Origin: Pseudomonadota bacterium
GTDB lineage: Bacteria; Pseudomonadota; Gammaproteobacteria; Burkholderiales; Burkholderiaceae_C
Reading direction: 5' to 3'
DNA: 40,395 nucleotides
Assembly (NCBI GenBank): GCA_021808405.1
Contig: JAKBBQ010000003.1
Coordinates: 1-40,395 of the forward strand
The notes under the pieces were generated by a model. The model ran no database searches. It had not been told where the DNA came from and saw nothing but the letters and a program-made list of their open reading frames with translations. The translations under genes were made by a program, and so were the position numbers. Shown here piece after piece: positions 7,241-27,354 of this stretch; position 1 is the stretch's first letter, and each line of letters begins with the position of its first letter.

Positions 7241-7293
7241 GCGCGGCCGACGGCGCATCCACGGGCGACGCGGCGCGCGGTCGAGGAGATCCC

Positions 7294-12463: not shown

Positions 12464-13208
12464 GTCCGAGCAGGGCGCGCGCCAGCGCCTTGGCCGCATC
12501 CACTCCGCGGGCCCGCAACAGCGGACCGCTGCGCGCCTGTGCGAGGGCGGTGAATCGTCCCGCGCTCAAGCCGGGGCGCATGGCCAGGCGGGGCAGCAGG
12601 GCCGGCGGGGTCGGGCCGCCGGCGCGCAGCGCCCCCGGGCGCGACCCGTGCAGCCGTTCGAACCCGGCCAGGCGCGCCTGGGCGATGGCCTCGGCATCGG
12701 CGCGCCCGCCGGGAAAGGACATCTGCCGCGGCGCGACGCCCAGCTGCCGAGCCAGGATCGCATGCGAGGAGTCCAGTTCCTCGCGCAGCTGCGCCGCCGG
12801 CAACCCGGCGAGGAAGCGATGGGTGTGGCCGTGCGCGCCGATGCGCATGCCCTGCGCGGCCAGCTCGCGCACCTGCTGCCAGGAGCAATAGCCCGGGCGC
12901 TGCCCGACAAAGCCGGTGGTGATGAAAAAACACGCCCGCTGGCCGCGCGCCAGCAGCGCCGGCAAGGCCAGCTCGGCGTTGCTGGCGTGCCCGTCGTCGA
13001 AGGTCAGCACGACCCCGCCGCCGGCGGGCAGGCGGCCATGCAGCACCTCGGGGTCGAGCACCGGCACCCCCGCGCGCGCCAGGGCGTCGAGCTGGCCTTC
13101 GAATTCGTCCAGCGGCAAGGTGTAGGGGCGCTCGGCGGGATCGATGTCGCGCAGCCCCGCGGCGTCGCGCACCAGCCCGTGGTACATCAGGATGGCCACC
13201 CGGCTCAC
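12423..13208 (-). CDS. polysaccharide deacetylase (CE4 domain)
   Basis: The 261-residue protein begins VSRVAILMYHGLV and carries the CE4 motifs LTFDDGH (catalytic and metal-binding Asp), IGAHGHTHRFL (metal His pair) and MSFPGG. The GTG start at 13208 has GGGAGAAG upstream and overlaps the stop of the GT2 gene as GTGA, so it is translationally coupled. An open extension upstream of the GTG is the shadow of that GT2 gene. No signal peptide is visible, so it may act on lipid-linked intermediates in the cytoplasm. It differs from the deacetylase at 10055-10891 outside the catalytic motifs, so the two may act on different sugars or at different steps. Confidence 0.85.
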   Translation of the reverse strand: MSRVAILMYHGLVRDAAGLRDIDPAERPYTLPLDEFEGQLDALARAGVPVLDPEVLHGRLPAGGGVVLTFDDGHASNAELALPALLARGQRACFFITTGFVGQRPGYCSWQQVRELAAQGMRIGAHGHTHRFLAGLPAAQLREELDSSHAILARQLGVAPRQMSFPGGRADAEAIAQARLAGFERLHGSRPGALRAGGPTPPALLPRLAMRPGLSAGRFTALAQARSGPLLRARGVDAAKALARALLGHERYHRLYTRLRA

Positions 13209-14338
13209 GTCGTCTTCTCCCAGCGCGCATCGACGCGCCCCGAAACGAAACGCAGCAGAGCCAGCACCGCGGCCAGGTTCATGTCGCAGAACACCTGCGC
13301 GAAACCCACCAGCCTGCTGCGTCGGGTCGGTGGCCAGCAACTGCCGGCCAGCGCCAGCGCGTAGAAGGCCAGTTGCACGACCAGCGCGGCCAGCATCAGC
13401 GGGCCGGCGGCGACCGCGCTGGCCACCAGGCAACCCGCCAGCGCATAGGGCACCAGCAGGCGCAGCACCTTGTGCGAGACGAACTGGAACCACACCGGGT
13501 TGCTCCAGGGCAGGAACAGCCAGGGAAGGGCGGCGAAACTCTGGAAATTCCCGCTGAGGGTGCGGATCTTGCGCTTGCGTTCGGCGAGCGCGTCCTCCTG
13601 TACGCCGTCCCAGACATGGGCCCCGTCCTCCAGCAGCGCGCGCTTGCCCAGGCGCACCACCTGCATCGGGATCTCGAAGTCGTCCAGGATCGTCCCGTCG
13701 CGCAGCGGTGTCCAGTCCTCGCGGCGGATCGCATACAGCGCTCCGGTGGCCCCGACCGTCGAATGCAGGCGACTCTCGTTGCGGCGTATCCATTTCTCGT
13801 AGCGCCAGTACAGCCCGATGCTGCGACCGGCCTGGGTGCGCCCGGGGCGCTGCACCAATTCGCCGCTGACCACGCCGACCCCGGGCTGCAGCAGCCGGCC
13901 GACGATGCGCCTCACGGCATCCGGCGCGAGCTGCTGGCGCACGTCGCAGAACACGACGAAACCGGTCGCGACCTCGTGCATCGCGCGGTTCAGCGCATGC
14001 GCCTTGCCGCGGCGCGGCGCATAGCCGATGGCGCGCACCCCCGGCTCGGCGGCGACGACCTCGGCGGTGGCGTCGCTGGAACCATCGGAAACCACCAGCA
14101 CCCGCAGCCTGTCGGCCGGATAGTCGAGTTCGCGCAGGTTGCGGATTTTCGACGGCAGGCGGGACGCCTCGTTGTGCGCGGCGATGACCACGGTCACTTC
14201 AGGCAGTTGCGCATCACCCGGCTCGGCGGCCGGGGCGGGGCGCCGCAAGCGCGCCAGCGCGGCCACCAGCAGCGGGTAACCGGCGTAGGTGTAGAGCACC
14301 ACGCCGGCGCTGCCCCAGAACCAGGCCTGCGCGCTCAC
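13205..14338 (-). CDS. GT2 family glycosyltransferase, membrane-bound
   Basis: The 377-residue protein has an N-terminal membrane segment (about residues 5-28), a GT-A catalytic domain and two or three C-terminal membrane segments (about 290-370). The GT2 motifs are VTVVIAAHNEASRLPSKIRNL, VVSDGSSDAT, FVVFCDVRQ (DxD-like), TGALYAIRRED and DDFEIPMQV. KRKIRTLSGNFQ stands where processive enzymes have Q/RxxRW. It likely adds a sugar using a UDP or GDP donor at the membrane. The start is a GTG at 14338 without a strong ribosome site; it lies 45 bases after the kinase gene, and its own stop overlaps the deacetylase start. Confidence 0.85.
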   Translation of the reverse strand: MSAQAWFWGSAGVVLYTYAGYPLLVAALARLRRPAPAAEPGDAQLPEVTVVIAAHNEASRLPSKIRNLRELDYPADRLRVLVVSDGSSDATAEVVAAEPGVRAIGYAPRRGKAHALNRAMHEVATGFVVFCDVRQQLAPDAVRRIVGRLLQPGVGVVSGELVQRPGRTQAGRSIGLYWRYEKWIRRNESRLHSTVGATGALYAIRREDWTPLRDGTILDDFEIPMQVVRLGKRALLEDGAHVWDGVQEDALAERKRKIRTLSGNFQSFAALPWLFLPWSNPVWFQFVSHKVLRLLVPYALAGCLVASAVAAGPLMLAALVVQLAFYALALAGSCWPPTRRSRLVGFAQVFCDMNLAAVLALLRFVSGRVDARWEKTT

Positions 14339-14383
14339 GCGGGGGGCGCGCGGCGGGCGCGGGCCGCGGGTCGCCGCGCCGGC

Positions 14384-15280
14384 TCAGTAGGCGTAGTAGC
14401 CATAAGCCGACGACTCGGGCGGGGTGCGCGACTGGTTGAGCAGGGTCATCACCAGCGGGCAGTCCTCGAGCAGGCTCAGCGCGTGCTGCACCGTTCCCTG
14501 CCGCGTGCTTCCCGCATGCACCACCAGCACCACCTGCCCCATCTGCGGCGCCAGCACGCGCGCCTCGGCGGCGTGCAGCAGCGGCGGCGCGTCGAACACG
14601 ACCATGCGCTGCTCGGCATGCGCCGCCAGGCGGGCCAGCAGGGCCTGCATCGCCGCGCTGCCGAAGATCTCGGTGGCCAGTTCGTGCTGCGTGCCGGCCG
14701 GCAGGAAGCTGAGCTTGTCGACGTTGGTGGCCAATTCGACCTCGGACAGCTCCAGCCCCGGGTCGAGCAACAGGTCGAGCAGGCCGCGCCGACCCTCGCC
14801 CACCCCCAGCCGCTTGGCGGCAGCCATGCGCGTGCTGTCGGCATCGACCAGCAGCACGTTGTGCCCGAGTTCCATCGCCATGCTCACGGCCAGGTTCACC
14901 GCGGTGAAGGTCTTGCCCTCGCCCGGCAGGCTGCTGGTGATCATCACCAGGTTGCCGCGATCCACCGGCTGGCGCGACTTGCCGCCCACCGCGTTGCCCA
15001 GCAGCGGTCGCTTGATGCTGCGCAGTTCATCCATCAGCCGGGAGCGCGCGGCGCCGGGCACCAGGTAGCCCGCGGCGGCGAGCCCGGCCAGATCGATTTC
15101 CACGCTGTGCCGCGGCTCCAGCAGCGCGGGCGGCCGCGCCGCCACCTCCTGCAGCGCCCCGGCCAGCGCCGCCGGCTGCTCGCCGGCCGACGCGGCCGCA
15201 GCGGGGTCGCTCCACGGAACCTCGACACCGGCAAGGCGCAATTGCTCGAGCCGTTTACTCGCCTGTTCGATGATGCTCAC
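14384..15280 (-). CDS. XrtA/PEP-CTERM-type tyrosine autokinase (CpsD/CapB-like)
   Basis: This 298-residue BY-kinase begins SIIEQASKRLEQLRLAG, the opening typical of the kinase of exosortase-type EPS loci. The P-loop SSLPGEGKT lies at about 116-124, Walker A' VLLVDAD at 142-148, and Walker B MVVFDAPPLL near 225-235. The C-terminal tyrosine cluster YGYYAY (293-298) is the expected autophosphorylation tail. With the separate chain-length protein just upstream it should form a two-part Wzc-type copolymerase controlling chain length. The start is GTG at 15280, with TGAAGG upstream overlapping the previous stop. In the A' motif, the residues after DAD are STR. Confidence 0.88.
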   Translation of the reverse strand: MSIIEQASKRLEQLRLAGVEVPWSDPAAAASAGEQPAALAGALQEVAARPPALLEPRHSVEIDLAGLAAAGYLVPGAARSRLMDELRSIKRPLLGNAVGGKSRQPVDRGNLVMITSSLPGEGKTFTAVNLAVSMAMELGHNVLLVDADSTRMAAAKRLGVGEGRRGLLDLLLDPGLELSEVELATNVDKLSFLPAGTQHELATEIFGSAAMQALLARLAAHAEQRMVVFDAPPLLHAAEARVLAPQMGQVVLVVHAGSTRQGTVQHALSLLEDCPLVMTLLNQSRTPPESSAYGYYAY

Positions 15281-15290
15281 GTTGCGGCCT

Positions 15291-16847
15291 TCAATGGTTC
15301 AGGTACAGGATGTTCGCCAGCACCCAGACCGCGAAGCCGACGACCAGCAGCGCGCTGGCTGCCAGGAACATGCGCCGTTGCGAGTGCTCGCGCGACAGGC
15401 TCGCCGGCGTGTGCACCAGGGTGATCGAGCCCAGCACGGTGCGCTGCGTGTCCTCGCGCAGCTGCCGCGAGGTGCGGTAGGTGGGAAACAGCATCACCAG
15501 CGCGTAGGAGGTCGCCACGCCCAGTGCCACCGCGAGCACCAGCACCAGCGCGATGAGGAAGGTGCGGCGAGGGAACAACGCGGTCGGCCCCAGGCGCGGC
15601 GGATCGACGACCCGGAAGTAGTCCTGGCTGCGGCTCTGGTCCTGGTTGCGCGAAAGCATCGCCGACTCGCGGCGCTGCACCAGCTTCTGGTAGCTGTCGC
15701 TGATCACCCCGTAGTCCCGGTTGAGCTGGGCATACTGCTCGTCCAGCCCGGGCATCTTGCGCTGCTGCTCGCCCAAGTGCTGCAGCCGCGCGCGCACATC
15801 GGCGACCTGCGACTGCAGCGCGGCGACGTTGGCGGCGGCCTGCGCCAGGCTGATGCGCAACTGCTGGTAGACCGGATTGGTGGCCTGGGAGTAGCTGGGC
15901 TGCGCGGGAGCCGCCGCGGGGCCGGCCTGCTGCTCGCGCTGCCGCTGGGCCTCCAGGCGGGCCAGCGCCTGGCGGGTCGCGATGACGTCCGGATAGGCGT
16001 CGGTGTAGCGCTGCAACAGGTCGTCCAGGTGCTTGCGCTGCTGGGCGATGCGCAGGTCGATCGCGCTGGGCGCCGCAGCCAGGACGCCGCCAGGCATCAG
16101 CGAGGGAGCCAGCGTGGGGTGTACCTGGCCGAGCTGGCCCTGCAATGCGTCGCGCGCGCTCACCGCCGCGGTGAGCTGGCCCTGCAGGGTGATCAGCTGC
16201 CCCTGCAGCTGCGACTCCATGGCGTTGTAGTCCATCGGCCCGCGTACCGAATACTCGGGATGAGCGGTGCGAAACGCCGTCAGGCGGTTCTCGATGTCCT
16301 GCAGCTTGGTCTTGTACAGAGCGATCTGGCTGTCGATGAACCGCAGCGCCTGGCTCGAATCGCGCTCGTTGTTGGCCACGCCCCTGTGCACGAACACGTC
16401 GATCAGCGTGCGCACGACCCCCAGGGTCTTGCGGGGGTCGGTGCCGATGTAGCTGATCTGGTAGATGTTGTCGCGGCCGTTGATCTTGAACTCGATGCTG
16501 GTGGACAGCCGCTGGATCAGCAGCCGGCGTTGCAGCGCGCTGGCGCCGGCTGGCAGCAGATGGTCGCGCTCGATCACCGCCTCCAGGGTCGCCGGCGACA
16601 GCATGGTGCGCGCCAGCATGGTCACCTGCTGCCCCACGTCGGGTTGCACGGCCAGCCCCTGCAGCAGCGGCCGCAGGGTGCTCTGGGTGTCGACGTAGAC
16701 GGTCGCGCTGGCCATGTAGCGCTCCTTGTAGGCGAGCACGCCGACGGCGCCCAGCAGCGCGAACACCCAGGCGACGGCCAGGCCCCACCAGCGCTTTTCC
16801 CACATCGCCGGCAGCAGGTTGAACAGCGGAGCAAGCAGATCGTTCAT
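15291..16847 (-). CDS. polysaccharide chain-length determinant protein (Wzz-like, XrtA type)
   Basis: The 518-residue protein has a first membrane segment at about residues 18-40 (WWGLAVAWVFALLGAVGVLAY), a long periplasmic region with coiled-coil character (about 170-400, many Gln/Ala/Leu/Arg), and a second segment near 425-445. A third hydrophobic stretch ends the protein (LAASALLVVGFAVWVLANILY). This architecture and the motif YMASATVYVDTQSTLRPLL match the chain-length determinants of XrtA-type EPS loci. There is no kinase domain, which is supplied by the next gene ten bases downstream. The start is the ATG at 16847. A gap of 124 bases separates it from the ATPase gene upstream. Confidence 0.88.
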   Translation of the reverse strand: MNDLLAPLFNLLPAMWEKRWWGLAVAWVFALLGAVGVLAYKERYMASATVYVDTQSTLRPLLQGLAVQPDVGQQVTMLARTMLSPATLEAVIERDHLLPAGASALQRRLLIQRLSTSIEFKINGRDNIYQISYIGTDPRKTLGVVRTLIDVFVHRGVANNERDSSQALRFIDSQIALYKTKLQDIENRLTAFRTAHPEYSVRGPMDYNAMESQLQGQLITLQGQLTAAVSARDALQGQLGQVHPTLAPSLMPGGVLAAAPSAIDLRIAQQRKHLDDLLQRYTDAYPDVIATRQALARLEAQRQREQQAGPAAAPAQPSYSQATNPVYQQLRISLAQAAANVAALQSQVADVRARLQHLGEQQRKMPGLDEQYAQLNRDYGVISDSYQKLVQRRESAMLSRNQDQSRSQDYFRVVDPPRLGPTALFPRRTFLIALVLVLAVALGVATSYALVMLFPTYRTSRQLREDTQRTVLGSITLVHTPASLSREHSQRRMFLAASALLVVGFAVWVLANILYLNH

Positions 16848-16971
16848 CGCGGATGCATCGGGTATGCGCAGGCGGGCGGCGCGGGCTTGAGGATCGGGCC
16901 AGCGCTCCGGCCCGGCCTGGCGGCCAGACGGGTGTGGCAGCGAATGAGTCGGCGGTCGCGCGGGGTTCGGC

Positions 16972-18978
16972 TCAGGCTCGTTCCAGGTAGTCGCGGTAGG
17001 CCCCGTCCTGGCGCGCCAGCAGCCAGTCAGCCAGCCTGGCGGCCACGCGCTGGGATGCGTGGCCGTCGAACCCTTCCGGCGGCTGCACGCGACGCCCTCC
17101 GCTGGCGATGATATCTGCCAATTCTCCGGCAATCCGCCGTATTTCCGAAGAGGATTTCTCGGCTTCCACCGAATGCGCATCAAGCATCAGCGACGGCACC
17201 CCGAGCGCCAGCGCCTGCGCCTGCAGCCACTCGCTGTCGCTGAGCACGCAGCGCGCGTGGCGCATCAGGCCCAGCATTTCCACGTGGGACGGGGTGTCGA
17301 TGGCATGCACCGCGGTAGCCAGCGCCTGCGCGCAGCGTTGCGCCAGCGCGTCGCGCTGGCCGGATCGCACCACGCAGATCAGGGAAAACATCCAGCCGAG
17401 CTTGCGCATCCGGGCGTTCAACGCCACCACCGCCTCGCCGGTGGCTCGCTCGTCGCCATCGCGCAGTGCCACCAGCGCGAATCCGGCCGGATCGGAAAGC
17501 AGCGATAGTGGAACGCCTTCGCGCCGCAGCAGCTGCTCGGCGGGGGCGCCGCGCGCCAGCGCCAGGCGCACCGCGTCGACCGCGACGCTGCCCACCAGAT
17601 GGATCGCCTGGGAGTCGACGGCTTCGGCATGCAGCCACTCCTGGTCGGACCATTCGGCGCAGAACAGCAGGTCCGCGGCATGGTCGAGCAATTCGCGCCG
17701 CCTGCGCAGCGGCGTCCCGGCGGCCTGGCCGCGCAGCCCGGCTTGCACCCGCACCACCGGCACCTCGGCGGCCGCGGCGGCCATCGCGCAGGCGACCTCC
17801 ACCGGGCCGTCGCCGGCCAGCACCACCGCGCCGACCTCGCGCGCGTCCAGCCTCGCCGCCAGCGCGGCGGCCACCTCCGCGGCGCGCGCCGCGGCAGAGC
17901 TCGCCTGCAACACGACTTGGCTGCCCGGATCGCTCACGCCGAGGTCTCGCAGGTCGCGTTGCGCGCGCTCGCCGTCGTCGATCGCGCCGGGGCCCTGGAA
18001 ACGCAGCAGCAGCGGCGGCGGCAGGTCCTCGCGCTGCGCGAAAGCCTGTGCCAGCGCGCCGGCGCACAGCAGCGACGGCTGCGAAGCGGCCACGCACAGC
18101 ACGACCTCGCGGGTGCGGCGCGACGCGCTCGCCGCCGCCAGCAGTCGGTGTCGCTGCCCTTGACCGCCGATCTCGGCGCTCAACTCGGCTTCGACGCGCA
18201 GCACCCGCGCGGCGTCGATGCGCTCGGCCTCGTCGAGGAACGCCGACAGCAGCAGCCGGTTGCACAGGGTATTGATGCGTCGCGGCACCCCCGCGCTGGC
18301 GGCGTGGATCAGATCGAAGGCCTCGTCGTCGAAGCCGGGTCGCTGCTTCCAGCCGACATGGCGCAGGCGATGCTCGATGTAGCCCCGCGTTTCCGCGGGC
18401 TCCATCGGCCCCAGGTGGCAGCTCGCCAGCACGCGCTGGCGCAGTTGCTCGAGCTGGGGCAGGCGCAGGATGTCCCGCAGTTCGGGCTGCCCGACGAGGA
18501 AGCTCTGGAGCAACGCTCGGTTGCCGAACTGGAAGTTGGACAACATCCGAAGCTCCTCGATCGCCTTGGGGTCGAGGTTCTGCGCTTCGTCGATGATCAG
18601 CAGCGCGCGCCGGTTGGCGGTGGCCAGCGAAGCCAGGAAGGCCTCCAGGGTCACCAGCAGGCGTGCCTTGCTCAGGCCCTGGCCGTTGATCCCGAAACCC
18701 AGTGCGACCGCGTACAGCAGGTCGTCGGCACCGAGCTGGGTGCTGACCACTTGCGCGGCGACGACCTTGCCCGGGTCGAGTTCGGACAACAGCGCGCGCA
18801 GCAGGGTCGTCTTGCCGGCGCCGATATCGCCGGTCACGACGATGAAGCCTTCGCCCTGGAACGCTCCGAAGCGCAGGTACTGGTAGGCGTTGCCGTGCCC
18901 CTTGCTCTCGAAATAAAAGCTCGGATCGGGGTGGATCTGGAACGGCGACGCACTCAGCCCGTAGTGCTTCTCGTACAT
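16972..18978 (-). CDS. XrtA-type AAA ATPase fused to a degenerate WecB-like domain
   Basis: The protein is 668 residues, against about 270-350 for the usual locus ATPase. Residues 1-270 are the GspA/ExeA-like AAA domain: MYEKHYGLSASPFQIHPDP, Walker A GDIGAGKT (50-57), Walker B LLIIDEAQNL (127-135). Residues from about 290 follow the order of non-hydrolysing UDP-GlcNAc 2-epimerase (WecB): VVLAGDG (386-391), VQAGLR (411-416), LVGSVAVDAV (461-470), LSDSEWLQAQALALGVPSL (579-597). By my alignment to E. coli WecB the Asp is kept, but the two Glu and the His are replaced by Gln412, Arg and Arg506. It probably binds rather than converts a nucleotide sugar. The start is the ATG at 18978. Confidence 0.82.
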   Translation of the reverse strand: MYEKHYGLSASPFQIHPDPSFYFESKGHGNAYQYLRFGAFQGEGFIVVTGDIGAGKTTLLRALLSELDPGKVVAAQVVSTQLGADDLLYAVALGFGINGQGLSKARLLVTLEAFLASLATANRRALLIIDEAQNLDPKAIEELRMLSNFQFGNRALLQSFLVGQPELRDILRLPQLEQLRQRVLASCHLGPMEPAETRGYIEHRLRHVGWKQRPGFDDEAFDLIHAASAGVPRRINTLCNRLLLSAFLDEAERIDAARVLRVEAELSAEIGGQGQRHRLLAAASASRRTREVVLCVAASQPSLLCAGALAQAFAQREDLPPPLLLRFQGPGAIDDGERAQRDLRDLGVSDPGSQVVLQASSAAARAAEVAAALAARLDAREVGAVVLAGDGPVEVACAMAAAAAEVPVVRVQAGLRGQAAGTPLRRRRELLDHAADLLFCAEWSDQEWLHAEAVDSQAIHLVGSVAVDAVRLALARGAPAEQLLRREGVPLSLLSDPAGFALVALRDGDERATGEAVVALNARMRKLGWMFSLICVVRSGQRDALAQRCAQALATAVHAIDTPSHVEMLGLMRHARCVLSDSEWLQAQALALGVPSLMLDAHSVEAEKSSSEIRRIAGELADIIASGGRRVQPPEGFDGHASQRVAARLADWLLARQDGAYRDYLERA

Positions 18979-18994
18979 GGCCCGTGGCTCGGCT

Positions 18995-20617
18995 TCAGAA
19001 TCGATGCACCAGGCCCGCGAACACGCCGGTCTCGTTGCCGTTGCCCACCTGCGTGGACACCAGGAAACGGCGGCGCACGCCGACGAGCCCGGTGGTGCGA
19101 GGCGAGAAGCGGTGATCGAGCTGCAGGATCACCGCGGTCTGGTGCGCGCTCTGGCCCTGGCGCAGCCCGAAGCCGATGTCGTTTTCCCGCTGCAGGGTGA
19201 GGTTCATGTTGTCCACCGGGGTCAATCGGTGGCCGTAGTTGATCGCCACCCCGGTCTGCACGTTGTCGTTGGACACGCTCTGCAGCAGCTGCAGCAGCTG
19301 CTGGCCGGGCAGGAACAGGTCCTCGATGCGGTTGCGGTACACCGAAACCGCGACGCTGTCGCGCGGGCGCACCCACAAGCCCGTGACCACCAACTCGTTC
19401 TGCAGCACCGAGGACGAGGTGTAGAAGCCGCCCGCGGTGGTCAGGCTGGCCGGCAGCCCGGCACTGCCCAGCAGGCTCTGCACCGCCGCAGCGCGTTGCA
19501 CCGGGTTGGTGTACTGGGTGGTCAACAGGCTGCTCAGCAGGGTCGCGACATTGCCGGCCGTGCGCCCGGCGGTGTTGCCCCCCAGCGGCGCCAGGTAGCT
19601 GGTGGGCTGGCGGATCCACGACGCGCTCAGGCTCAACTGGGGCGAGCCGGCATGGGCCAGCAGCGACCAGCCGGTGCCGAAGTAGCGATGCTCGACCGTG
19701 GCGTCGACGGCCTCGAGCGGCGAAGGCGACCAGGCTGTGCGCAAGCCGTAGATGCCGGCAGTGTCGTTCGCGCCCTGCGCCTGCACCTTCTCGTGGCCGC
19801 CGATGACCCCCACCACCCACTGCGTGGTCAGTGCGTAGTTGAGAATGCCCCGGAAGGTCGTGTCACGCAGCCAGGCGTAAGGCTCGCCGTCGTAGGTCGC
19901 GTAGGTCTGCTGGGCGGCGAGGGTGTAGCCCCAGTTCTGCGGCAGTTGATCCAGGCGGATCGTCTGGTCCAGGTAGCGCCCCCCCGAGAGCATCCCGCTC
20001 GACGGCGAATTGCTCACCCGCGTCCAGGTGTCGTCGCTGCGCGCGCGCAGGCGCAGCGACGGAGTCAGCAGCCGATCGATGTAGGGCGAGATGCGCCACT
20101 GGGTGCTGGTGTAGGTGCTGCCCTGCACCGGCCCGCCCTGTCCCACGTACGGGCTGATCGACTGCTGCTGCGATACCACCGAGGCATCGAAGTAGACGAA
20201 CTGGTCGACCAGTTCGGAGTGCAGGCTGCCCGATCCGTAGGGTGCCACCACGTTCGGCCGCACGCCGTTGACATAGTAGGTGCCGTTCAGGCTGAAGTCG
20301 CCCAGCACCTGCCAGCGCGCGTGGCTGGACCCCAGGAAGATATTGGGCATCACCTGCAGCACGGTGTCGGAGCGCGAATGGCTGCTGACCCCGTAGTTCG
20401 CATTGCTGGTCTGCGTGGCCAGCACCGCGACCGAGGGCACGACGTAGGTGTTCGGCGGCGGCAGTTCGGCTTGCGGCCCCGAAGCGGCCGAGGCGGCCGG
20501 CAGCGGCGCCCTCGGCACGTTCGGGATGACCTGGCCCTGCGCCGCGCCGAACCCGCCCAGGCCCAGGCAGGCGGCGATCACCGCACGATCGAGAGTACGC
20601 AGGCTGAATGCTTGCAT
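18995..20617 (-). CDS. TIGR03016-like outer-membrane beta-barrel of EPS locus
   Basis: The 540-residue protein has a signal peptide (about residues 1-28, ending GFGAAQGQ). A Pro/Ala-rich linker follows, then repeated amphipathic strands with alternating aromatic residues, ending in VHRF, the terminal Phe of many outer-membrane proteins. The composition and the start of the mature domain (VVPSVAVLATQTSNANYG) resemble the outer-membrane proteins of PEP-CTERM/XrtA EPS loci. It may form the outer-membrane channel or secretin-like partner for EPS export. The ATG at 20617 has AGGAG eight bases upstream; the longer frame to 20695 lacks a signal peptide at its start. It lies 16 bases before the ATPase gene and 114 bases after the export lipoprotein gene. 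Confidence 0.82.
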   Translation of the reverse strand: MQAFSLRTLDRAVIAACLGLGGFGAAQGQVIPNVPRAPLPAASAASGPQAELPPPNTYVVPSVAVLATQTSNANYGVSSHSRSDTVLQVMPNIFLGSSHARWQVLGDFSLNGTYYVNGVRPNVVAPYGSGSLHSELVDQFVYFDASVVSQQQSISPYVGQGGPVQGSTYTSTQWRISPYIDRLLTPSLRLRARSDDTWTRVSNSPSSGMLSGGRYLDQTIRLDQLPQNWGYTLAAQQTYATYDGEPYAWLRDTTFRGILNYALTTQWVVGVIGGHEKVQAQGANDTAGIYGLRTAWSPSPLEAVDATVEHRYFGTGWSLLAHAGSPQLSLSASWIRQPTSYLAPLGGNTAGRTAGNVATLLSSLLTTQYTNPVQRAAAVQSLLGSAGLPASLTTAGGFYTSSSVLQNELVVTGLWVRPRDSVAVSVYRNRIEDLFLPGQQLLQLLQSVSNDNVQTGVAINYGHRLTPVDNMNLTLQRENDIGFGLRQGQSAHQTAVILQLDHRFSPRTTGLVGVRRRFLVSTQVGNGNETGVFAGLVHRF

Positions 20618-20731
20618 GGTCGGGGCTCCTGCCGAGGGCTCGGTGAAAACGACAGCGAAGGGGAAGAAGGCGCGCCGGCCAAACCGGGCGGACATGTCGA
20701 TGAATATGCGGATGCAGAACGTTCGCGGGCC

Positions 20732-21361
20732 TCAGAACCAGCCCTGGGGAATCACGATCGTGTCGCCCGGGAGCAACGGAACATTGTCCGCCATCACTCC
20801 TTTATGCAACAAGTCGTCCAGCAGCAGGCTGTAGGACTTGCCATCGCGGATCAGCACCGCGGCGTTTCCGTCGGCGTAAGGGGTGAGCCCGCCGGCTGCG
20901 ATCATCGCGTCGAGCACCGTCATATGGTCGCGATACGGCACGCTCTGCGGCTTCGCCGCTGCGCCGACAATCGACACCTGCTGGTCCAGCGCGCCGTGGA
21001 AGTTGCTGACCACGACGGTCACGACGGGGTTGCGCACGTACTTGGCGATGCGCTGCTTGATCTTCGCCGCCAACTCGTCGGGAGTCAGTCCGGCCGCCTT
21101 CATGCCGTCGACCAGCGGTGCCGAAATGCGTCCGTCGGGACGCACCTGCACGGTCGACGACAAGTCGGGGTTCTGCCACACCCCGATGTTCAGGGTGTCG
21201 CCGGGCCCGATCACATAGTGGTAGTCGGCCAGCGACGCGTGGGTCGGGGCCGGCGGATAGCTGTTGGCGGCGCACGCCCCGAGCAGCAGCAGCAGGCCGA
21301 GCGCGCAGCCCCGGAGCAGGCGCAACGCGAACGCGGATCCCATCGACAAATTCTGGTTCAT
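20732..21361 (-). CDS. polysaccharide export lipoprotein (Wza/EpsA-like)
   Basis: The 209-residue lipoprotein has a signal sequence with lipobox LGAC (Cys near residue 31). A poly-export domain follows (YHYVIGPGDTLNIGVWQNPDLSSTVQVRPDG), then SLBB-like segments (VSIVGAAAKPQSVPYRDHMTVLDAMIAAGG split, and PLLPGDTIVIPQGWF at the end). It is the short XrtA-type form and lacks the long C-terminal helix domain of E. coli Wza, so a beta-barrel partner such as the next gene is probably needed. The ATG at 21361 has AAGG seven bases upstream. It is the first gene of the minus-strand assembly run and is divergent from the initiating transferase. Confidence 0.88.
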   Translation of the reverse strand: MNQNLSMGSAFALRLLRGCALGLLLLLGACAANSYPPAPTHASLADYHYVIGPGDTLNIGVWQNPDLSSTVQVRPDGRISAPLVDGMKAAGLTPDELAAKIKQRIAKYVRNPVVTVVVSNFHGALDQQVSIVGAAAKPQSVPYRDHMTVLDAMIAAGGLTPYADGNAAVLIRDGKSYSLLLDDLLHKGVMADNVPLLPGDTIVIPQGWF

Positions 21362-21518
21362 TTCGTGACCTTTTTCACAGGCGCGCGGCCGGCAATATGC
21401 TAAAAACTTCAGTCAAAATCATCCGGGAATTTTTCAGGCGGTAAGCCGACAGTATCCGGAACCCGAGTCTAGGGCACTGCGCGACACCCCAGCACCCCGA
21501 GACGGGGGGATGACCGCG

Positions 21519-21546
21519 ATTATCAACCATGCCAAGATTCGGTTAA
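21519..21546 (-). promoter_or_regulatory. putative sigma-70 promoter for the minus-strand EPS assembly run
   Basis: Read on the minus strand, TTAACC (21541-21546) and GATAAT (21519-21524) are separated by 16 bases. They match the -35 at 4 of 6 and the -10 at 5 of 6 positions. Transcription would begin near 21512 and give a leader of about 150 bases before the export gene ATG at 21361. This is the best-matching candidate in the region, but it rests on pattern alone. Confidence 0.42.
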
Positions 21547-21581
21547 AGACCCGGGCGCGGCGTGGCCGTCTTTGCTTTTTT
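21545..21581 (+). terminator. putative hairpin plus T-run in the leader of the initiating transferase
   Basis: AAAGAC (21545-21550) pairs with GTCTTT (21568-21573) around a 17-base GC-rich loop. Two bases later comes a run of six T (21576-21581). The arrangement resembles a weak intrinsic terminator or attenuator lying 120 bases upstream of the transferase ATG. The stem is short, so it may be fortuitous. Confidence 0.28.
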
Positions 21582-21700
21582 GAGGAATGACGCGCCGTAT
21601 TTGCGTCGAATCGCCGCGACGCGCACTTGCCGGCTGGTCGCTGCGAGCCGCCGACCTTGCGGCTGCCACCACGGCGCCACGCAACCAGGGATGCATCACG

Positions 21701-23110
21701 ATGATTCGGGTTTTCGACCACTACGTGCCCACGCGAACCGTGATGGAACTCGGCACGGATTTCTCGTTGCTGTGCCTGGCCGGCATCGCCTCGGGCGCCA
21801 CGCTGCAGGTGCTCTCCGGAACGACGTCCAGCCTGGTCGATTCCCTGCCTGCGATCCGCGCACCGGCGCTCGCCTACGCCTGCACGATGCTGCTGCTGTT
21901 CGTCGCCTTCGGCGTGTACCAGCGCGAGCGTGGCGGCTCGCTGCGCCTGCTGCTGCTGAGCGCGCTGCTGGCGACCTTCGTCAGCGTCGGCCCACTGTTC
22001 TTCGTGCTGCTGCACCTGGCCATCGTGGGCGTGCATCCGCTGCGTTTCCTGGGACTGGCCTACGTGCTGCAGTTCGCCGGCCTGGTGCTCATCCGCCAGC
22101 CGCTGCTCGGGGCCCACACCCGGCGCCTGTGGAGCAGCAAGCTGCTGGTCGTCGGCTGCGGACCCGACGCCCAGGCCGTCGCCAGCGACATCCAGCGGCG
22201 CGGCCAGGGCGCCTACCAGCTGGTCGGCTTCTACCCCTCGGCGCGCGACGAGACCGCGGCGCCGCAGCTGCCGGCGCCGCTGTTCTGCAATGCCGATGAG
22301 CTGGCCGCGCTGGCCGACGCGCAGGGCATCGACGAAATCGTCGTCGCGGTGCGTGAGCAGCGCGGCGGCGTGCTGCCGCTGCGCCAGTTGCTGGAGTGCC
22401 GCACACGCGGCGTGCGGGTGCATTCGATGGCGGCCTTCAGCGAGCGCCTCAACGGCGAGGTCCCGCTGGACAGCCTGAAGGCCAGCTGGCTGATCTACGG
22501 CAACGGCTTCGCGCAAGGATGGCTGCGCACCACGGTCAAGCGGCTGTTCGACATCAGCGCGTCGCTGGTGCTGCTCGCACTGAGCTGGTGGATCATGCTG
22601 CTGGCGGCGCTGGCCATTTTCATCGAGGACGGTGGGCCGGTGCTGTTCCGGCAGCAGCGCGTCGGCCGCTCCGGCCGGCTGTTCAGCGTGCTCAAGTTCC
22701 GCAGCATGCGCACGGACGCGGAAAAGGACGGCGTCGCGCGGTGGGCGCAGGCCAACGACAGCCGGGTCACGCGGGTGGGCCGGTTCATCCGCAAGACCCG
22801 CATCGACGAACTGCCCCAGCTGTTCAACGTGCTGCGCGGGGAGATGAGCCTGGTCGGCCCGCGCCCCGAGCGCCCGGGCTTCGTCGAACAGCTCACCGAG
22901 CAGATTCCCTTCTACGCCATCCGCCACAGCGTCAAGCCCGGCCTGACCGGCTGGGCGCAGGTACGCTTCAGCTATGGCGCGTCGCTGGCCGATGCCCGGC
23001 GCAAGCTGCAGTTCGACCTGTACTACGTGAAGAACCACTCGCTGGTGCTGGACCTGCAGATCATCCTGGAGACGGTTCGCGTGGTGCTGCTCGGCGAAGG
23101 TGCGCGCTGA
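21701..23110 (+). CDS. XrtA-type undecaprenyl-phosphate sugar phosphotransferase
   Basis: The 469-residue protein begins MIRVFDHYVPTRTVMELGTDF, the characteristic opening of the TIGR03013 transferases of XrtA loci. Four or five N-terminal membrane segments lead into a CoA-binding-like domain (KLLVVGCGPDAQAVASDI, near 148-165) and the C-terminal sugar-transferase domain: a membrane segment, then VLFRQQRVGRSGRLFSVLKF (split), SMRTDAEKDG, TRIDELPQLFNVLRGEMSLVGPRPERP and YYVKNHSLVLD. It should start each repeat unit by moving a sugar-1-phosphate to undecaprenyl phosphate. The ATG at 21701 has AGGG upstream; the open frame back to 21587 does not resemble the family. It heads a plus-strand unit with the two nucleotide-sugar genes. 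Confidence 0.9.
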   Translation: MIRVFDHYVPTRTVMELGTDFSLLCLAGIASGATLQVLSGTTSSLVDSLPAIRAPALAYACTMLLLFVAFGVYQRERGGSLRLLLLSALLATFVSVGPLFFVLLHLAIVGVHPLRFLGLAYVLQFAGLVLIRQPLLGAHTRRLWSSKLLVVGCGPDAQAVASDIQRRGQGAYQLVGFYPSARDETAAPQLPAPLFCNADELAALADAQGIDEIVVAVREQRGGVLPLRQLLECRTRGVRVHSMAAFSERLNGEVPLDSLKASWLIYGNGFAQGWLRTTVKRLFDISASLVLLALSWWIMLLAALAIFIEDGGPVLFRQQRVGRSGRLFSVLKFRSMRTDAEKDGVARWAQANDSRVTRVGRFIRKTRIDELPQLFNVLRGEMSLVGPRPERPGFVEQLTEQIPFYAIRHSVKPGLTGWAQVRFSYGASLADARRKLQFDLYYVKNHSLVLDLQIILETVRVVLLGEGAR

Positions 23111-23170
23111 CGCCGTGGCCAGGCCGGGCGCGCCGCGCGCCCGATCCGCTCTCAACCTCGAAGGAACCCT

Positions 23171-24451
23171 ATGAGCGTCGTTGCAGTCGTCGGGCTCGGC
23201 TATGTCGGCCTGCCGCTGGCGGTGGAATTCGGCAAGCGTTATCGCACCATCGGCTTCGATCTGTCGCAAGCCAAGATCGATGCCTATGTCCAGGGCCGCG
23301 ATCCCACCGGAGAAGTCCCGGGCAGCGAGTTGCAGGCGGCGCGGCTGCTCGAGCCGACCACCGATGCCGGCCTGTTGCGCGAGGCTGACTTCATCATCGT
23401 GGCGGTGCCCACTCCGGTGGACATCGCCCACAACCCCGACTTCTCTCCGCTGGCCTCGGCCAGCGAGATCGTCGGGCGCCATCTCAAGCCGGGCAGCACC
23501 GTGGTGTTCGAATCGACGGTCTACCCGGGAGCCACCGAGGAGATCTGCGTTCCCCTGATCGAGCGTCACTCGGGGATGCGCTGGAAGCAGGATTTCCATG
23601 TCGGCTACTCGCCCGAGCGGATCAACCCCGGCGACCGCGAACACACCCTGACCCGCATCGTGAAGGTGGTCTCGGGCGACACCCCGCAGACCCTGGAGCG
23701 CGTGGCGGCCATGTACGGCAGCGTGATCACGGCCGGGGTGCACCGGGCGACGTCGATCAAGGTGGCCGAGGCCGCCAAGGTGATCGAGAACACCCAGCGC
23801 GACCTGAACATCGCATTGATGAACGAGCTGTCGCTGATTTTCCATCGCATCGGGATCGACACCGGGGAAGTGCTGGCCGCGGCCGGGACCAAGTGGAACT
23901 TCCTGCCCTTCCGCCCCGGACTGGTCGGCGGCCACTGCATCGGCGTGGACCCCTACTACCTGACCCACAAGGCCGAGTCGCTGGGCTACCACCCGCAGGT
24001 CATCCTCGCCGGGCGCCGCATCAACGACGGCATGGGCAAGTACATCGCCGAGCAGACGGTCAAGCAGATGAGCCGCGCCGGCTTCCCGATCCGCGGCGCC
24101 AAGGTGATCGTGCTGGGCCTGACCTTCAAGGAGGACTGCCCCGACCTGCGCAATTCCAAGGTGATCGACGTGATCCAGGAGCTGCGCACCTACGGCGTCG
24201 AGGTCCACGTGCACGATCCGATCGCCGCGGCAGGCGAGGCGCGCCACGAATACGGCATCGAGCTGGTGGATTGGGACTTGCTGCCGCGTGCCGCGGCGAT
24301 CGTCGCCGCGGTGGCGCACCACGACTATCGCAAGCGCCCGCTGGACGACTTCCTCGCTCGACTCGAGCCGCGCGGCGTGGTGATGGACGTCAAGTCGGCG
24401 CTCGACACCGAGGCCCTGCGCGCCCGCGGCGTGCACACCTGGCGCCTGTGA
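23171..24451 (+). CDS. tviB: UDP-HexNAc 6-dehydrogenase (TviB/WbpO-like)
   Basis: This 426-residue nucleotide-sugar dehydrogenase has the Rossmann motif [12 protein letters not shown] at the start, the VAVPTPVD loop, [12 protein letters not shown], and the active-site cysteine Cys256 in [14 protein letters not shown]. The C-terminal UDP-binding domain begins at [21 protein letters not shown]. The sequence fits TviB/WbpO enzymes, which oxidise C6 of UDP-GlcNAc or UDP-GalNAc to the uronic acid with two NAD. The ATG at 23171 has AAGGA upstream, 60 bases after the initiating transferase. The neighbouring C4 epimerase would supply UDP-GalNAc, pointing to GalNAcA or GlcNAcA in the polymer; which one cannot be read from sequence. 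Confidence 0.88.
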
Positions 24452-24453
24452 CC

Positions 24454-25518
24454 ATGGACTCGATGCGCGAATTCGCCCTGCCGGAGCTGGTCGCCGGCTT
24501 CGATCTGCAGCGCGAGCTGCGCAGCGCGCGGCGCTGGCTGGTCACCGGCAGCGCCGGCTTCATCGGCTCGCACCTGCTGCAGGCCTTGCTGCAGGCCGGC
24601 CACGACGTCGTGAGCCTGGACAATTTCGCCACCGGGCATCGCAGCAACCTCGACGAGGTGCGCGCCGCGGTGGGAGAACAGGCCTGGTCGCGGCACCGCT
24701 TCATCGAGGGCGACATCGTCGACCCGGCCACCTGCGCCGCCGCCTGCGTCGGCGTCGACATCGTGCTCCACCAGGCGGCGCTGGGTTCGGTGCCGCGCTC
24801 GCTGGAGGACCCGCTGCGCACCCACGCGGTCAACGCCACCGGTTTCCTCAACATGCTGGTCGCGGCGCGCGATGCCGGCTGCGAGCGCTTCGTGTTCGCG
24901 GCGTCGAGTTCCACCTACGGCGATCATCCGGGGCTGCCCAAGGTCGAGGAGCGAATCGGCAATCCGCTTTCGCCCTACGCGGTGACCAAGTACCTCGACG
25001 AACTCTACGCCGGGGTGTTCACCCGCAGCTATGCGATGCAGACCGTGGGGCTGCGCTACTTCAATGTGTTCGGCCAGCGCCAGGACCCGCGTGGCGCCTA
25101 TGCCGCGGTGATTCCCAACTGGGCGCATCGCATCGTCAGCGGCCAGGCCTGCGTGATCAACGGCGACGGCCAGACCACGCGCGACTTCTGCTACGTGGCC
25201 AATGTCGTGCAGGCCAACCTGCGCGCCGCGCTGGTTCCGGCGAGCGGCCCGCGGCACGAGATCTTCAACATCGCCTACGGCGAGCAGACCACGTTGAACC
25301 AACTGCACGAGCTGCTGCAGCGCGACCTGCGCGAACTGCTGCCCGATCTCGTGCTGCACCCCGCCGTCTACCGCGACTTCCGCCGCGGCGACGTGCGACA
25401 TTCGCTGGCCGACATCGACAAGGCAAGGCGCCTGCTGGGCTACCAACCCACGCACAGCGTGCGCCAGGGATTGCGCGAAGCCATGGGCTGGTACCTCGGC
25501 AGCACCGCCAGCGTCTGA
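24454..25518 (+). CDS. tviC: UDP-GlcNAc 4-epimerase, SDR family (WbpP/TviC-like)
   Basis: The 354-residue extended SDR has the NAD motif [16 protein letters not shown] (about 31-46), [28 protein letters not shown], the catalytic Ser region AASSSTYGD and the YxxxK motif YAVTK in [16 protein letters not shown]. The extra N-terminal helix and the substrate-side [14 protein letters not shown] match WbpP/TviC UDP-HexNAc 4-epimerases. It would interconvert UDP-GlcNAc and UDP-GalNAc (or their uronates) for the adjacent dehydrogenase. The ATG at 24454 begins three bases after the dehydrogenase stop; a GTG at 24448 is also possible. It converges on the beta-propeller gene across 32 bases. Confidence 0.88.
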
Positions 25519-25550: not shown

Positions 25551-27026
25551 TCAGTCCGGCAGTTCGATCGCGTAGGTGTCCACCGCTGCCCGCCCGTCGA
25601 TCACCGGATGCGCGGGATCGGCGCATCCCCAGTCGCTTTGCACCAGCAGGCGCGTTCCGCTCGGGCTGATGGTCACGTTGGGCTGGGCCCAGTAGTTGCT
25701 GTGCGGCGCATCGCCCCAGGCGCCGGTGCTGCGGTGGTGGGCCACGCGCAGCACCCGGCCGGTTCCCAGGTCGGTCACGAAGACCTCCTGGTCCAGCAGG
25801 GTCCAGGGATGTTCGACCGCATGCCGGTTGCCGGTTCCGAAGGGCGAGCCGATCGTCGCCCCGGCGACTCGCTGCGGCGCGCGGTATGCCACGGCGCTGG
25901 TGAAGGAGCCGGTGCGCGGGTAGCCGTAGCCGTTGGCCTTGCCGATCAGCGTGCTGACCTCGCCGGTATCCAGGTTGGCCGCGATCAGGTTGCCGTCGAT
26001 CGCGCCGTCGAACTGGACTCCGACCAGCAGGTCCTGGCCCTGGGCGTTGAGTGCGGTATCCACGTGTTCGTGGGCACTGAAGGCGATCTTGCGCATCACC
26101 CGGCCGTCGAGGTCCAGCACCCAGGTCCTGTCGAATTGCGCCTCGTGGCTGCGCGCGTCGTTCCAGAACCAGCCTCGTCCGCTCAGCCTGGGGCCGGGAA
26201 CGCGGGTGCGCGGTTGCGCGCTCGGCACGTCGTGGTAGTGGACGATGCGCCCGCTGTGCAGGTCGAAGCCGAACACGTTCAATGCCAGGTAGCCGTGGAT
26301 CTTCGGCACGCCGCCTGCGCCGAGCCCCCAGATGCGGTTGCCGGCTCCATTGGCGAAGGGGTAGCCGGCGCGCACGGGTCCCTTGTCGGACCAGCCCATG
26401 CGCTGCAGGTCGGGGACGAAGTCGTGCACGACGCGCAGCGTGCCTCGGCGCACGTCGAAGGCCGTCATCTCGCAATGCGAGACGCTGCCGCGCGAATAGT
26501 TGCTGATGTAGAGCAGTTCCGACGGGTTGTCGCGAGACCACCAGAACTGCTCGATGTCCGACGGGTTGATAGGAATGAATCGCAGGAAGCGGTAGTCCTG
26601 GCCGTCGAACAGTGCCCAGCCGCGCCTTCCGCCGTGGGTCTCGCGGGTGACATACAGCACCAGCAGGGACTCGTCGCAATTCCACGCCTGGGTCGTCGGG
26701 TAGGCGGGCATCGCGACGCGCGCGCGGAAATCGGCCACGCAGTCGGTGACGCGGACCATCCGGGTGCCGAAGTCCGGGTCGCGCACCGGCTTGAGCTTGG
26801 GCGGCTTGGCCATCGGCGAATAGCGTGCCGGCGTGGTGCCGGCGATGCCTGCGCTACCCACGCTGCCCAGCACTTGCGATCCGGCCGCCTGCGCGCCGTC
26901 ATGCCGCAGCCATTCGAGCCCTCCGACACCCAGCACGCCCAGGCCGCAGGCAGCGCCCACCGCACGGCCGAGGGCGCGCCGCCGCGGATTCGGCGGCGCG
27001 TATTCTTGCGACTTCGATTTCGGCAT
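25551..27026 (-). CDS. exported beta-propeller protein, possible polysaccharide-active enzyme
   Basis: The 491-residue protein has an Arg-rich N-terminus (NPRRRALGRAVGAACGLGVLGVGG, residues about 14-37) that looks like a Tat-type or uncleaved export signal. The remainder shows repeated blade-like segments with Trp/Asp-rich turns: YPTTQAWNCDESLLVLYVTR, QFWWSRDNPSELLYISNY, GAGNRIWGLGAGGV, and WAQPNVTISPSGTRLLVQSDWG near the end. The fold recalls oligogalacturonate-lyase-like propellers, but I cannot name a family with certainty. Its place beside genes for a uronic-acid precursor makes an EPS-trimming or binding role plausible. The ATG at 27026 is fixed by GGAGG six bases upstream. Confidence 0.72.
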   Translation of the reverse strand: MPKSKSQEYAPPNPRRRALGRAVGAACGLGVLGVGGLEWLRHDGAQAAGSQVLGSVGSAGIAGTTPARYSPMAKPPKLKPVRDPDFGTRMVRVTDCVADFRARVAMPAYPTTQAWNCDESLLVLYVTRETHGGRRGWALFDGQDYRFLRFIPINPSDIEQFWWSRDNPSELLYISNYSRGSVSHCEMTAFDVRRGTLRVVHDFVPDLQRMGWSDKGPVRAGYPFANGAGNRIWGLGAGGVPKIHGYLALNVFGFDLHSGRIVHYHDVPSAQPRTRVPGPRLSGRGWFWNDARSHEAQFDRTWVLDLDGRVMRKIAFSAHEHVDTALNAQGQDLLVGVQFDGAIDGNLIAANLDTGEVSTLIGKANGYGYPRTGSFTSAVAYRAPQRVAGATIGSPFGTGNRHAVEHPWTLLDQEVFVTDLGTGRVLRVAHHRSTGAWGDAPHSNYWAQPNVTISPSGTRLLVQSDWGCADPAHPVIDGRAAVDTYAIELPD

Positions 27027-27354
27027 CACCGCCCTCCGTGCACGCGATGCTGCGCGCACGCGATCAAGGACCCATCCGAGCCCGCGACAGGGCAAGGTGG
27101 CAGCATGGAATGTCCGCCGGCAGTCCCGCGCGCCGCACCAGGGGCGCGCGGACTGCGCATGCAGTGGCTCGCTGTTTCGATGATAGCCGGCGCGATCACG
27201 CCGCGCCAAGGCCTGGTGGCTCGACGGGTCGGGGTCGACCGGGCGTCCTTGACAGGGTCGAAGGCGCCCACCTATTCTGGATCGCCTGGGGTGCGGCGAT
27301 GCGCGCCTGCGACTTCGCGATCCATTGCCATGCGCCAGCAGCACGACCGCCGCG
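27027..27354. promoter_or_regulatory. divergent control region, beta-propeller / ATP-grasp genes
   Basis: No gene is supported in these 328 bases. The right part holds a good plus-strand promoter (27249-27278). Just before it is a dyad, GGTCG (27227-27231) and CGACC (27236-27240) with a 4-base loop, which could be an operator. For the minus-strand propeller gene I see only its strong GGAGG ribosome site and no convincing promoter. Confidence 0.5.
27249..27278 (+). promoter_or_regulatory. sigma-70 promoter for the second ATP-grasp gene
   Basis: TTGACA at 27249-27254 is a perfect -35 and TATTCT at 27273-27278 matches 4 of 6 positions of the -10, with an 18-base spacer. Transcription would start near 27285, about 70 bases before the ATG at 27355. 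The dyad at 27227-27240 lies directly upstream. Confidence 0.6.

Follow-up and report, generated by a model that had tools for sequence, protein, structure and literature searches.

The EPS locus psc1 of Rubrivivax gelatinosus is laid out in the order Wza, chain length, tyrosine kinase, exported protein, ATPase and epimerase, the ATPase being followed by a UDP-GlcNAc 2-epimerase in the published locus table (PMC3684757). For several WecB/MnaA enzymes UDP-GlcNAc is a known allosteric effector, and in the MnaA of P. alvei replacement of the E131 equivalent by Ala almost abolished activity (PMC11464976, in the extract consulted). Solved structures are available for WecB/MnaA, the family modeled by TIGR00236 (1F6D, 1V4V, 3BEO), and for WbpI-type epimerases (8sxv-8syh). 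Pseudoenzymes form a general class in which an enzyme fold is retained under selection with its catalytic residues gone. A search of the open-access literature, with subscription papers outside its scope, returned no account of an ATPase-WecB fusion or of a WecB pseudoenzyme, and the words ‘ATPase’ and ‘epimerase’ are absent from the extract of PMC1569441.

Here, we describe a gene in which a dead, folded and constrained epimerase domain sits on an intact ATPase, in an EPS export locus without XrtA nearby. The locus, found in the window (the whole stretch of 40 395 nucleotides that was analyzed), shares the psc1 order given above, yet has ATPase and epimerase as one gene, a dead epimerase and no exosortase, and the surrounding gene order differs as well from that in the psc1 table. 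Like the ATPases of XrtA/PEP-CTERM systems, the protein matches the full TIGR03015 model, carries Walker motifs and has neighbors matching TIGR03007, TIGR03016, TIGR03027, TIGR03013 and, just under its cut-off, TIGR03018; unlike them, it has a C-terminal domain of WecB fold, and XrtA was not detected in its genome. That domain resembles the WecB/MnaA and WbpI-type epimerases in fold (Foldseek E of about 5e-16), is 20-23% identical to them over ~380 columns, and appears to descend from the wecB gene that stands behind the ATPase gene in canonical loci. In contrast to these enzymes, it is part of an ATPase, scores under the family cut-off, and has lost three of the four catalytic residues, most substrate residues and the allosteric residues tested. 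As in pseudoenzymes at large, a fold without catalytic residues has been kept under selection.

The fused gene and its EPS locus

The gene is a single open frame on the minus strand that runs from an ATG at 18978 down to 16972, and its start is the same as those of the aligned relatives (Table 1). An EPS-locus ATPase joined to a WecB-like domain in one 668-residue frame had been proposed from the letters alone, and profile searches bear this out, both TIGR03015 and Pfam Epimerase_2 being matched above their cut-offs; for TIGR03015 the curated cut-off is exceeded and residues 1-268 cover the full model. Both Walker motifs are intact in the window protein, and every fused protein aligned retains them. 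An assembly artefact was ruled out because the same fusion is present in many independent assemblies, including those of the isolates T. delicata DSM 16361 and Thiomonas sp. FB-6, through which the host genus is named as Thiomonas.

The stretch 13205-25518 is an EPS locus with XrtA-system proteins in a genome without a TIGR02602 or TIGR03109 exosortase match. Export proteins of the XrtA/PEP-CTERM EPS system are present, four scoring above their cut-offs and the TIGR03018 match falling just below. The TviB/TviC-like pair (23171-25518) adjoins the priming transferase and presumably points to a GalNAcA-type sugar; it occurs at 13 of the 14 Thiomonas loci, and a contig end truncates the remaining one. 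A 597-aa frame at 25551-27344 (minus strand) has no Pfam match at E 1e-4 and has conserved counterparts (42-92% identity) in several EPS loci of Thiomonas. Also among EPS genes, at 7270-8907 (plus strand), there is a GINT1_N match of 145 bits, a domain named for plant glucosamine inositolphosphorylceramide transferase.

Table 1. Positions of the fused gene, its parts and its neighbors in the window
Feature	Position	Strand	Basis
Fused gene, XrtA-type ATPase + pseudo-WecB domain, 668 aa	16972..18978	-	ORF, profile matches
ATPase domain, residues 1-268 (TIGR03015)	18175..18978	-	367.1 bits, cut-off 324.5
Walker A GDIGAGKTT, residues 50-58	18805..18831	-	Alignment
Walker B LLIIDE, residues 126-131	18586..18603	-	Alignment
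Pseudo-WecB domain, residues 290-668 (GT-B/epimerase fold)	16975..18111	-	Profile, phmmer, model, Foldseek
REDLP, residues 316-320, fusion-specific conserved stretch	18019..18033	-	Alignment
Asp390 (D95 equivalent, retained)	17809..17811	-	Alignment to intact WecBs
Gln412 (E117 equivalent lost)	17743..17745	-	Alignment to intact WecBs
Leu424 (E131 equivalent lost)	17707..17709	-	Alignment to intact WecBs
Arg506 (H213 equivalent lost)	17461..17463	-	Alignment to intact WecBs
XrtA-associated tyrosine autokinase-like	14384..15280	-	TIGR03018 214.7 bits, just below cut-off 230.65
Chain-length determinant	15291..16940 (16940 is the edge of the scanned stretch)	-	TIGR03007 402 bits, above cut-off
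Outer-membrane protein	18995..20695	-	TIGR03016 139.6 bits, above cut-off
Polysaccharide export protein	20732..21361	-	TIGR03027 213.8 bits, above cut-off
Priming glycosyltransferase	21587..23110	+	TIGR03013 478.9 bits, above cut-off
TviB-like nucleotide-sugar dehydrogenase	23171..24451	+	TIGR03026 above cut-off; NF011729 491.5 bits, below cut-off 592
TviC-like 4-epimerase	24472..25518 (24472 is the first base of the scanned stretch)	+	NF011728 408 bits, below cut-off 760

An epimerase fold without its active site

By score the domain falls outside WecB, with TIGR00236 matching residues 361-603 at 60.3 bits, under its cut-off of 210.15, and Epimerase_2 matching residues 357-600 at 85.2 bits, over its cut-off of 30.6. 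TIGR00236 scores 52-136 bits in four of the five Thiomonas relatives scanned, while the fifth has no listed match at E 0.001. In phmmer searches the nearest solved structures belong to epimerases of the WbpI and WecB/MnaA types (8sxv, E 7.9e-15). An AlphaFold2 model of the full protein, built on a shallow alignment of 13 sequences, has a mean pLDDT of 69.7 and a pTM of 0.57; its ATPase half is poor, with many blocks <50, and the part after residue 290 is confident, 10-residue blocks mostly reaching pLDDT 80-93. All 50 of the 50 PDB matches listed by Foldseek are non-hydrolysing epimerases of the WecB kind, led by 1v4v_B (E 4.8e-16) and including 8sxw, 5enz and 1f6d. Model and Foldseek thus place a GT-B epimerase fold after residue 290, as the sequence-only reading had anticipated when it suggested a comparison of the predicted structure with WecB.

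We take the residue numbers used here (D95, E117, E131, H213 and others) to be those of E. coli WecB. When the catalytic and ligand residue sets given in Table 4 of PMC11464976 are located by alignment to intact WecBs, Asp390 alone remains of the catalytic set in the window protein, which on this ground too does not belong with WecB. R135 (Arg428) and S290 (Ser582) are also retained, and R10, K15 and E296 are changed to Gln300, Cys305 and Gln588. The catalytic residues are therefore not intact, in agreement with the earlier view that two Glu and a His had been lost and an Asp kept, which holds for Gln412, Arg506 and Asp390 but had given the second Glu as Arg, where the alignment has Leu424. 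Arg425 follows directly, the earlier reading having been one alignment column off, and since the mismatch is only one column, the conclusion of catalytic loss is unchanged.

Intact separate enzymes and dead fusions

The search covered 300 order-level and 399 family-level genomes and, for the ATPase, 369 class-level genomes and the same 399 family-level genomes, and frames were checked on fetched DNA. Most loci with an XrtA-type wecB carry it as a separate gene that starts a few tens of bases past the ATPase gene. Among the matches listed, at least 38 family genomes out of 399 have the fusion, and they span 12 genera including Thiomonas; the best four or six candidates per genome were scored in the family lists, and absences there are no proof. 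Within Thiomonas it is present in 17 of 25 genomes (the window genome counted, and one of the 17 cut by a contig end), while the remaining eight gave either no match (six) or weak unrelated matches only (two). Conservation in relatives, put forward earlier as a check, is thus seen in the genus and, for similar fusions, in 11 other genera of the family. The Thiomonas fusions are 54-94% identical in all and come in two forms, that of the window with a short linker and another with ~70 extra linker residues; catalytic residues are lost in both.

All 69 separate WecBs carry the full quartet D95, E117, E131 and H213, and none of the 56 distinct fusions from the family does; this contrast does not amount to 125 independent observations because a single evolutionary event may lie behind all the dead fusions. 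Directly beside the ATPase lie 62 of the separate genes; the other seven have no ATPase on the fetched stretch. Among the fused proteins, the H213 equivalent is lost in all 56 and that of E131 in 52, and the number of catalytic residues kept is none in 21, one in 29 and two in six. The 56 exclude L010 (cut by a contig end) and include the g191 rows L141, L146, L147, L166 and L167 despite weak alignment; the 69 exclude L023 and L024, whose WecB-like genes are intact but of a different kind, as well as the separate, intact WecB of L143; L178, with a broken wecB frame in a 74%-complete draft, is in neither set.

The sole intact fusion found, L152 in genome G770, belongs to another family of the class, keeps all catalytic residues and has XrtA ~5 kb away. 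It is probably independent of the family fusions and, being fused yet intact, tells us that joining the two frames is not by itself enough to inactivate the epimerase. Nor does the dead copy require that the cell has lost the reaction, since an intact separate WecB exists besides the fusion in G387, G511 and G394, and in G415 within ~3 kb. Long frames without the domain were also seen: 13 class-level TIGR03015-like ATPases (L153-L165) lie in frames of 714-1240 codons without a WecB domain, and none was found in three long frames of the family (L169-L171). Together with L152, these rule out that every fusion to a TIGR03015 ATPase carries a dead WecB.

Fused proteins make up one side of a branch both in a tree of the WecB domain (104 rows, SH-aLRT 99) and in one of the ATPase (97 rows, SH-aLRT 97). 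A larger ATPase tree of 109 rows splits the fused proteins and five unfused ATPases from all separate-gene rows with a branch support of 99; the root of these trees is uncertain, and the tool warned of long branches. Because the fused sequences are themselves long branches, artefact may account in part for their grouping in a single clade. The trees fit one fusion event and suggest a single origin. In an ancestor within the Burkholderiales family, an ATPase gene and the wecB gene directly behind it in an XrtA-type EPS locus would have come to form one frame. The epimerase half would then have lost its catalytic residues and most nucleotide-sugar contacts, its fold being kept by purifying selection; we infer this order of fusion and loss.

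Dead fusions and the exosortase XrtA

Dead WecB goes with a locus that lacks XrtA. When the loci were scanned by tblastn, XrtA was present at all 26 separate-gene loci, at all 13 ATPase-only loci of the separate-gene branch and at the one intact fusion, and it was found at none of the 36 dead-fusion loci (two of which, L030 and L229, are apparently one strain) and at none of the four ATPase-only loci of the fused branch. Genome-wide, TIGR03109 exceeds its cut-off in 3 of 36 dead-fusion genomes, each time on a contig other than that of the fusion, in 6 of 7 genomes with an intact WecB (the exception being G417) and in 14 of 15 genomes with the ATPase alone on the separate-gene branch. No TIGR03109 match above the cut-off was found in 13 further Thiomonas genomes or in five genomes with the ATPase alone on the fused branch. 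TIGR02602 reaches >220 bits in 27 of 28 separate-gene-only genomes and at most 169 bits in 25 dead-fusion genomes (G387 counted here). With no match to either model in its 97.66% complete draft, the window genome (G000) does not show the XrtA exosortase that an XrtA/PEP-CTERM system has in the genome, near the locus. As the dead fusions and the absence of XrtA may be one event, we read the relation as association, not cause.

Why the dead domain is kept

With somewhat more confidence than doubt, we favor the reading that the fusion descended from adjacent ATPase and wecB genes and that the pseudo-epimerase has been retained because it serves an EPS export machine without exosortase as a structural or docking module. 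The domain would be a non-catalytic part of an AAA-type ATPase, in a machine of chain-length protein, tyrosine autokinase, outer-membrane and Wza-like proteins that would run without the exosortase XrtA. WecB enzymes are dimers; the contacts of the domain could lie between ATPase subunits, or with the chain-length protein, the kinase or the priming transferase.

Selection on the domain was estimated as omega by NG86. In 15 chosen fused pairs, with species shared between pairs, omega of the C-terminal domain ranges from 0.061 to 0.468 (median 0.17; window pair 0.24), compared with 0.032-0.177 (median 0.09) in 10 pairs of separate WecBs; the fused ATPase has 0.016-0.486. The dead domain is under purifying selection and is less constrained than the living enzyme. 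A one-off pseudogene is ruled out by omega <1 and by conservation in relatives. Constraint has also shifted to other positions than in the living enzyme: the fusions have a conserved stretch of their own, REDLP, of which R, D, L and P are present in 18 of 18 Thiomonas rows and E in 17 of 18; Leu-Pro at 319-320 occurs in 44 of 59 fusions versus 3 of 69 separate WecBs.

Five genomes with an unfused ATPase, without the domain, are nested in the fused branch (L187-L191). Four of these were examined on larger stretches and the fifth, G536, on 3.5 kb only; although they look at first like simple losses of the domain, 3 of the 4 loci encode a further ATPase-like protein with a dead WecB attached. At the fourth, L228, a second fusion was not found within 18 kb. 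Second-type fusions comprise L225-L227 and seven more (L058, L106, L108-L112). All keep Walker A and B and have lost the LSNFQ stretch (10/10), and LRQRV reads LRERV in six and is gone in four; in the second fusion of L226, His occupies the H213 column, the other three catalytic residues being absent. Genomes G288 and G642 of g23 carry a second-type fusion ~50 kb from an ordinary one.

Because second fusions supply the domain at three of the four ATPase-only loci, the dead domain can be read as needed by the machine, against which L228 speaks. A more tentative proposal, to which we lend less than even credence, is that the branch dropped the exosortase and captured the epimerase in the same step, the pseudo-epimerase being its hallmark and a needed part that can be supplied in trans by a second fusion.

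The main rival, which we consider unlikely, holds that the domain is a passenger in decay, retained only since the ATPase carries it for folding or stability, without a role of its own, and eroding. An omega higher than in separate WecBs and the g191 copies, barely recognizable at 53-96 bits with an HMM of the fused domain, fit such slow decay and to that extent count against a docking or structural module, and the domain-free ATPases of the five nested genomes point the same way. The pocket residues that survive and the eight of 25 Thiomonas genomes without a fusion weigh against the module reading as well. What tells against mere carriage is that omega lies well under 1 in 15 of 15 pairs, that the fold is conserved and confidently predicted, that REDLP is new and conserved, that second fusions bring the domain to loci whose main ATPase is without it, and that the domain is retained across the 12 genera.

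Nucleotide-sugar sites and other reactions

It had further been suggested that the domain could sense a nucleotide sugar and gate export or polymerization through the ATPase. A sensor that binds UDP-HexNAc would suit an EPS machine, UDP-GlcNAc is allosteric in several WecB/MnaA enzymes according to the extract of PMC11464976, and the window domain keeps the fold and some pocket residues (D95, R135, S290), yet neither a conserved substrate site nor a conserved allosteric UDP-GlcNAc site was found. Over 14 catalytic and ligand columns, the mean conservation percentile is 90 in separate WecBs, 52 in Thiomonas fusions and 45 in other fusions, the latter two being about the level of any average column. 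The allosteric UDP-GlcNAc residues, named in Table 4 of PMC11464976 and present in 69 of 69 separate WecBs, are nearly all lost from the 56 dead fusions, where Q42 is kept in four, H43 in none and R209 in two. In the phosphate loop, 15 of 18 Thiomonas rows have Trp in place of Gly292. Which residues survive differs among subgroups, R135 (18/18) and D95 (15/18) in Thiomonas rows and K15 (28/38) and E296 (26/38) in other fusions. Sensing by the known nucleotide-sugar sites therefore appears unlikely from these alignments; the domain may have a novel kind of binding site, and we regard the sensor idea as a whole as improbable.

GT-B folds host many reactions, and the D95 equivalent is kept in 15 of 18 Thiomonas rows, but catalysis of another reaction through new residues is very hard to credit, as no new invariant polar cluster was found at the old active-site columns and within Thiomonas alone the H213 column holds E, R or D and the E131 position varies. 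No more credible is that a switch of the locus to making an acidic HexNAc sugar through TviB/TviC left WecB superfluous and alone explains the catalytic loss: the pair is in nearly all Thiomonas loci, but TviB-like genes (≥50% identity) also occur at 14 of 26 loci where WecB is intact, and just two of the 22 other dead-fusion loci have them, counts that largely refute the switch as a general cause; inside Thiomonas it could still hold.

Implications

Separate and intact on the one side, fused and dead on the other, these genes form a natural series in which to follow the conversion of an enzyme into a structural component, the living ancestor still being a close neighbor in related genera. The fusion also marks a type of EPS export locus that bears XrtA-system names with no linked XrtA, so that annotation by names alone misleads. 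Lastly, it makes a neglected question testable, namely the role of the TIGR03015 ATPase in EPS export and its partner surface.
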